The notes under the pieces were generated by a model. The model made no database searches. It was not told the DNA's origin and saw only the letters and a list, made by a program, of their open reading frames with translations. From Microbacterium ureisolvens (GTDB taxonomy: Bacteria > Actinomycetota > Actinomycetes > Actinomycetales > Microbacteriaceae): a DNA stretch of 64,000 nt. Location: the NCBI RefSeq assembly GCF_019511645.1, contig NZ_JAEUAX010000001.1, positions 372,001 to 436,000 of the forward strand. Direction: 5' to 3'. The position numbers and the translations under genes are program-made. This document shows, piece after piece, positions 33,810 through 33,976 of this stretch (positions within the stretch are counted from its first letter, which is position 1; each line of letters starts with the position of its first letter).

Positions 33810-33815
33810 TAGCCT
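33810..33815 (+). promoter_or_regulatory. -10 element of the leuA leader transcript
   Basis: TAGCCT followed by exactly 6 bases and the ATG of the leader peptide at 33822, so the leader peptide would be translated from a leaderless mRNA. Confidence 0.6.
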
Positions 33816-33821
33816 GATCCC

Positions 33822-33875
33822 ATGCGCTTCCGCGGGCTTCTCCTTCTTAGCCGCCGCGACGAGACCTCGTTCTAG
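33822..33875 (+). CDS. leuL: leu operon leader peptide
   Basis: A 17-residue peptide, [17 protein letters not shown], encoded between the promoter and leuA. Codons 6-9 are CTT CTC CTT CTT. Four consecutive Leu codons make a leucine sensor, and CTT is rare in this genome, which uses CTC and CTG. The stop TAG (33873-33875) lies in the loop of the downstream hairpin. Ribosome stalling at low Leu-tRNA would keep the hairpin's 5' arm covered. Such leaders are known upstream of actinobacterial leuA. Confidence 0.85.
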
Positions 33876-33898
33876 GGCCTTCCTCGTCGCGGAGCTTT
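33854..33898 (+). terminator. leuA transcription attenuator
   Basis: A perfect 10-bp stem, CCGCGACGAG (33854-33863) with CTCGTCGCGG (33883-33892), followed by AGCTTTTCG. A competing short hairpin ACGAG-AC-CTCGT (33859-33870) would sequester the 5' arm. The 5' arm lies 5 nt after the last Leu codon, inside the footprint of a stalled ribosome. Confidence 0.8.
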
Positions 33899-33976
33899 TC
33901 GTTGGCCCGCATCATCAGGCATCGAGCCGCGCCCGTCGGGCCGACGCTCGGAACAGACGAGAGAAGCGACGACATC

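Follow-up and report, generated by a model that had tools for sequence, protein, structure and literature searches.

The DNA in front of leuA in the window, that is, the whole 64,000-nucleotide stretch of the Microbacterium ureisolvens genome analyzed here, almost certainly carries a copy of the LEU element of Actinobacteria (leuL-leuA). With a probability that we put at roughly 0.57, this element as a whole would act through ribosome-sensed leucine, a pseudoknot, and masking of the leuA Shine-Dalgarno (SD) sequence, with a mainly translational output. Taken alone, the window copy is an ordinary member of the element.

All parts of the window copy lie on the forward strand, and the upstream neighbor gene is era. 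A −10-like box, TAGCCT (33810–33815), stands 6 nt ahead of the ATG (33822) of a leader open reading frame (ORF) of 17 codons, which spans 33822–33875 including its TAG stop codon (33873–33875) and whose ATG is the putative 5′ end of the transcript. The sensor codons CTT CTC CTT CTT (33837–33848) are separated by 5 nt from stem S1, in which the 5′ arm CCGCGACGAG (33854–33863) pairs at 10/10 positions with the 3′ arm CTCGTCGCGG (33883–33892) around a loop of 19 nt. The stem is followed by AGCTTTTCGTT (33893–33903), with four T at 33896–33899, and then by leuA (33977–35737, ATG at 33977), which encodes 2-isopropylmalate synthase (NCBIfam NF002991, E 7.6e-270; TIGR00970, E 2.2e-258). An earlier note on this DNA had located the box, the ORF, the Leu run, the stem, the T-run, and leuA correctly, along with the 5-nt spacing, which is the same in 115/117 relatives. 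Its parts were right, but two further helices escaped it. The first, P2, joins GGGCC inside the S1 loop (33875–33879) to GGCCC (33904–33908) by 5/5 pairs. The second, a base helix, joins GCTTCTC within the Leu codons (33836–33842) to GAGAAGC in the leuA SD region (33961–33967) by seven Watson–Crick pairs, and this GCUUCUC/GAGAAGC helix encloses S1 in the minimum-energy fold of the window leader as well as in its centroid fold.

Leader peptides rich in the end product also occur in the classical enterobacterial trp, his, and leu attenuators, which combine SD-led leaders, competing terminator and antiterminator hairpins, and a U-tract. The U-run terminator of that classical design is not conserved here, though the window copy has four T. 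Leaderless polycysteine leaders of mycobacteria reportedly control cysteine operons, going by the title of work by Canestrari et al. from 2020; these resemble the present case as leaderless sensor ORFs and differ in sensing cysteine. The LEU element itself was described by Seliverstov et al. in 2005 as a leader with a Leu run, a pseudoknot, and a helix between the Leu run and the SD sequence at leuA, with Leifsonia xyli among the genomes (PMC1262725, excerpt), and the same set is found here: a Leu-run ORF before leuA, two crossing helices, and a base helix with the SD sequence. The excerpt of that paper places the element at leuA and one transposase gene, whereas here it also precedes leuCD and, with other sensor codons, leuB-ilvE. 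In Streptomyces lividans TK24, LeuL1, MRFGLLLLSCRGEGL, precedes leuA and is leaderless (PMC8079986, excerpt). The window peptide is nearly the same, and the transcript start rests on RNA-seq in S. lividans, whereas that of the window leader is a prediction. Thus, as far as the excerpts of these two sources go, neither the element, known from Actinobacteria generally (PMC1262725), nor a leaderless leader, known from S. lividans (PMC8079986), is new. A search of Rfam at the locus returned no family at gathering score, and three matches at E up to 10 all lay far below their gathering scores.

Conservation was assessed by searching for leuA in 120 family genomes and taking the region upstream of the best match in all 117 that had one. 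The LEU element was found in 117/117, with leader, Leu run, and S1 all recurring; the leaders are Leu-rich and 12–17 residues long. This bears out the leucine-sensing leader that the earlier note had proposed in front of leuA, and the Leu run and stem, whose absence among relatives it had named as one of two refuting findings, are both kept. The distance from start codon to S1 is 23, 26, 29, 32, or 38 nt and falls in a single frame in 117/117, a count that is partly built in because starts were picked by requiring an in-frame Leu pair and TANNNT within about 16 nt. An unconditioned test, which takes ATG or GTG 15–45 nt ahead of S1 with TANNNT 6–7 nt upstream and ignores Leu codons and ORF length, gave 114 boxed starts in the frame of the leader versus 2 in another frame (117 genomes), and only 5/1007 other ATG or GTG codons in the wider upstream regions have TANNNT at 6–7 nt. 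Among the 117 relatives, the start codon is GTG in 86 and ATG in 31, and the spacing between it and the box is 6, 7, or 9 nt in 98, 16, and 3 relatives, respectively, the last three being L007, L096, and L097. An SD-like 4-mer stands ahead of the leader start in 1/117 and ahead of leuA in 79/117. The one-frame boxed starts, their spacing, and the lack of an SD before the leader amount to strong sequence evidence that the leader is leaderless and translated. The window leader, with its box 6 nt upstream, is thus very probably leaderless, in agreement with the earlier note, given TANNNT at 6–7 nt in 114/117 and no SD in 116/117. A promoter scan at the locus found no consensus −35/−10 pair. Two rows were set by hand, namely, the L110 leader, which was read from the sequence, and the L100 stem.

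The three family genomes with no leuA match are G005, G013, and G066; the element is absent from the first two and present in G066, whose leuA is perhaps cut by a contig end. An arrest peptide at the C-terminus of the leader was also considered and rejected. Changes from Asp or Glu to Gly accompany changes in the 3′ arm or G-U pairs, and because they track the 3′ arm in this way, the conservation of the C-terminus is better explained by the RNA stem.

The structure was evaluated on an alignment of 119 copies (the 117 leuA copies and two before a second leuA; 115 distinct rows). For S1, 99.6% of cells are paired and 4/10 pairs show changes on both sides, and for P2, on a fixed register, the values are 75% and 4/5. 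For the two helices together, percent paired, both-side changes, and covariation score each exceed 500/500 shuffles, whereas further pair types show no excess (18 vs a shuffle mean of 19.1). Independently of the alignment, P2 matches its own partner over 4.14 bases vs 3.86 for swapped partners (z = 3.5, 17/20000, 76 genera), with z = 0.5 for the reversed control; it is not clear in L005 and L010. The S1 loop is 15–24 nt among relatives. Shuffled versions of the window leader reach about the same total fold energy (z = −0.50). As judged from the compensatory changes, S1 and P2 cross to form a pseudoknot. Because P2 crosses S1, the supposed terminator hairpin would be one half of this pseudoknot, and the T-rich stretch, which the earlier note had read as a T-run, the linker between S1 and P2. 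A predicted 10-bp hairpin, 33900–33909/33937–33946, includes bases of the P2 3′ arm and could compete with this helix, though not with S1; judged by eye, it is absent from another genome of the genus, L003.

Some features of the window copy would suit classical transcription attenuation, the model of the earlier note, in which S1 acts as an intrinsic terminator whose formation is prevented by ribosome stalling on the Leu codons: a perfect 10-bp GC-rich stem is followed by four T. Direct blocking of this kind also fits the 5-nt gap between sensor and S1, which is seen in 115/117 relatives and, by the definition of the sensor, in the 14 copies before leuB. Moreover, the Corynebacterium leuL, a leuA leader that carries four Leu codons (PMC8709942, PMC4046766, PMC3890552, PMC5784534), shares the Leu leader with the window copy and differs in being labeled a (possible) transcriptional attenuator in the excerpts of PMC3890552, PMC4046766, and PMC8709942. 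Among relatives, however, only 6/117, the window included, have a T-run of at least four in the 12 nt that follow S1, and 35/117, again with the window, have a laxer tail of at least five T in eight starting 0–2 nt after S1; in the second copy of this genome, the stem continues into AGTTCGTCG, with no T-run. On these counts, the terminator proposed in the earlier note was rejected as a conserved output. It should be noted that a terminator scan that found nothing is not evidence here, as its loop limit of 3–8 nt excludes S1. S. lividans LeuL1 is likewise without a typical Rho-independent terminator, according to the excerpt of PMC8079986, and attenuation has no role for P2 or for pairing with the SD sequence. 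Given a pseudoknot with compensatory changes and the match of the Leu codons to the leuA SD, translational control is likelier than a terminator, and classical attenuation appears unlikely.

The match between Leu run and SD was compared between own and swapped partners in 76 genera, with one genome each. The run length is 5.96 vs 5.35 (z = 5.2, 0/5000), and the pairing energy is −14.33 vs −13.06 (z = −4.7, 0/5000). A reversed-SD control gave z values of 3.1 for the run and −1.6 for the energy, while those of three other control regions were 0.1 to 2.0 in size; because the reversed SD also exceeds the swaps somewhat, part of the signal is attributable to purine/pyrimidine richness or relatedness. 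Synonymous recoding of the Leu codons weakened both measures in 50/50 rounds. Predicted folds join the Leu run and the SD region by at least 4 pairs in 64/76 genera, compared with averages of 54.5 after swapping the SD and 58.5 after recoding the Leu codons; in 21/117 genomes, the match does not exceed 4 bp. Pairing of the Leu codons with the leuA SD is thus supported by covariation, and an effect on translation would be its probable consequence. At the leuC copies described below, the same test, run on 26 of 27 (L164 was left out, its start not being found) with starts chosen by a script that favors purine-rich upstream bases, gave z = −2.5 for pairing energy (127/20000) and a nonsignificant z = 1.4 for run length.

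In the mechanism preferred here, transcription would start at or beside the leader ATG, and the ribosome would read the leader without an SD sequence. With ample leucyl-tRNA, the ribosome would pass and leave, and the RNA would fold into S1 and P2, placing the Leu codons on the leuA SD and turning leuA translation off. When leucyl-tRNA is lacking, the ribosome would stand on the Leu codons at the foot of S1 and block the pairing, such that leuA is translated. Besides the fold energy at shuffle level and the short matches between Leu run and SD in some genomes, two points count against this scheme. First, a ribosome at the leader stop codon, which lies 13 nt past the start of the S1 5′ arm in 98/117 relatives, would cover S1 too. 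Since the stop is directly past the 5′ arm, a finishing ribosome would cover S1 briefly, which fits repeatable control on finished mRNA better than a single termination decision. Second, mutating the Leu codons in S. coelicolor gave results that classical attenuation would not predict, according to the excerpt of Seliverstov et al. (2005, PMC1262725).

To look beyond leuA, a covariance model was built from the alignment and searched across genomes of the class and the family, finding the element in 143/158 and 118/120 of them, respectively, with two or three copies in 80 of those 118 family genomes. The second copy in the M. ureisolvens genome (L160, G000:C1:179604-179691) lies outside the window, some 226 kb ahead of the copy at leuA, and is followed by leuC and leuD; its leader, VRIARLLLSGRDES, begins six bases after TAGCCT. 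Second copies precede leuC in 7/7 cases in the same genus and one other genus, and in 20/20 further family genomes hand-picked from the best-scoring matches listed. In other families, copies stand before leuA, a second leuA, or leuB-ilvE, and six of the proteins were confirmed with NCBIfam. The second leuA is about 50–56% identical to the first; the elements before it (L119, L120, L121, L180, L181, L182, and L197) have stems of the CCACG type. The leuB-ilvE elements are L159, L168, L170, L171, L174–L177, L179, L183, L196, L226, L260, and L271, and ilvE follows leuB at 14/14 of these loci. When 80 of at least 589 named leuB loci were examined with the leuA-based model (E up to 0.1), the element was found in 3, all of Aeromicrobium, and the remaining 77 (mostly Streptomyces; also Kribbella, Jiangella, Cellulomonas, and others) gave no model match; either the use of the element at leuB is patchy or the leuA-built model is too narrow. 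As a LEU element, the window copy is not a new attenuator. No report of the element at leuCD or leuB-ilvE, or of the change of sensor at the latter, was found in the literature searched; as most subscription papers fall outside its coverage, this is weak evidence of novelty.

The sensor was defined as the six residues ending 5 nt ahead of S1, and the leaders compared were those of leuA (117, plus 18 in other families, with the leuA copy L190 left out as no leader was found), the second leuA (7), and leuC (27). Val and Ile are both present in the sensor of 14/14 leuB leaders vs 0/169 of these leuA, second leuA, and leuC leaders, and three or more Leu are present in 0/14 vs 168/169. Examples from leuB are SVFVLI, WSVRIL, RHIFVL, KQLVLI, and RFVLIL. 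The 14 leuB copies come from four or five lineages and so do not represent 14 independent events. GTA occurs in each of the 14 leuB sensors and makes up 15/21 of their Val codons, whereas its share of Val codons is 1.9% in the matches to leuB and ilvE at 11 of the 14 loci.

The product of ilvE serves Val, Ile, and Leu, while those of leuA and leuCD serve Leu only. Val, Ile, and Leu codons before leuB-ilvE on the same scaffold thus point to the codon content of the leader as the sensor. That the sensor codons follow the downstream operon favors codon reading by a ribosome over the alternative preferred by Seliverstov et al., in which a regulatory protein (ML1624 orthologues) binds the element. 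The 2005 paper (PMC1262725, excerpt) left the mode of action open among a leader peptide, a protein site, or something else, with a protein ligand preferred. The RNA is compact and conserved, as a protein site might be, and the non-classical codon mutations of S. coelicolor in the same excerpt also suit a protein site. A protein, however, would need neither start codons in one frame, nor sensor residues that track the downstream operon, nor rare-codon choice in the sensors, so this alternative is highly improbable. The copies before leuCD and leuB-ilvE represent a natural swap experiment, which both points to codon reading by the ribosome and makes the question directly testable. There is about an even chance that one pseudoknotted scaffold with a leaderless sensor ORF runs a branched-chain amino-acid regulon across Actinobacteria, with only the sensor codons swapped (Leu, mostly as CTC or CTT, at leuA and leuCD; Val as GTA, Ile, and Leu at leuB-ilvE) and with the sensor antisense to the downstream initiation region. 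If so, the nucleotides that the ribosome reads would also be those that mask the start of the following gene.

Codon choice within the sensor appears to reflect more than one demand. All 117 relatives have a Leu run of 3 or 4 codons, the final one being CTT in 115/117. The earlier note was right that CTT is rare here: three genes of the window have 1 CTT and 67 CTC among their 128 Leu codons. Its idea of rare codons as the sensor holds in part: the last codon is CTT in nearly all relatives and GTA occurs in every leuB-ilvE leader, but the common CTC is about as freely used at the two positions ahead of the last Leu codon. Rarity as the sole reason for CTT was accordingly rejected and kept only as a partial cause. 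Counted back from the last, the fourth Leu codon is CTG in 54/68. The pyrimidine third bases of the Leu codons also serve, in the predicted base helix, the pairing with the leuA SD sequence. CTC and CTT are read by one tRNA isoacceptor class, and the codon class could be set by this isoacceptor rather than by pairing, which counts against the mechanism preferred here. CTG accounts for 0/18 Leu codons in the leuB sensors vs a background of 47.8% (leuB and ilvE matches, 11/14 loci), indicating that codon class matters even without a nearby SD.

At the leuB copies, masking of the SD is not evident, because the leuB match begins about 222–690 nt past S1 in the 10 copies measured. A P2-like complementarity of 4–10 bases is present (own vs swapped z = 3.0, 72/20000), and the sensor matches a downstream segment (z = 2.3, 326/20000). 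The long untranslated stretch at these copies, along with the lack of a conserved U-tract, would suit an output by Rho-dependent termination or by decay of the mRNA in the untranslated region past the leader, with the stalled ribosome or the pseudoknot as the gate, and Rho has been proposed for actinobacterial cys leaders (PMC1262725, excerpt). The leuC leaders, however, are compact, with 79–101 nt from the stem start to the chosen start codon in 26 copies, and an output through Rho or decay is rather improbable. In six of the leuB copies (L170, L171, L174, L175, L176, and L179), a small conserved ORF of 41–46 residues, beginning [MV]YD[ML]YP, lies directly before leuB.
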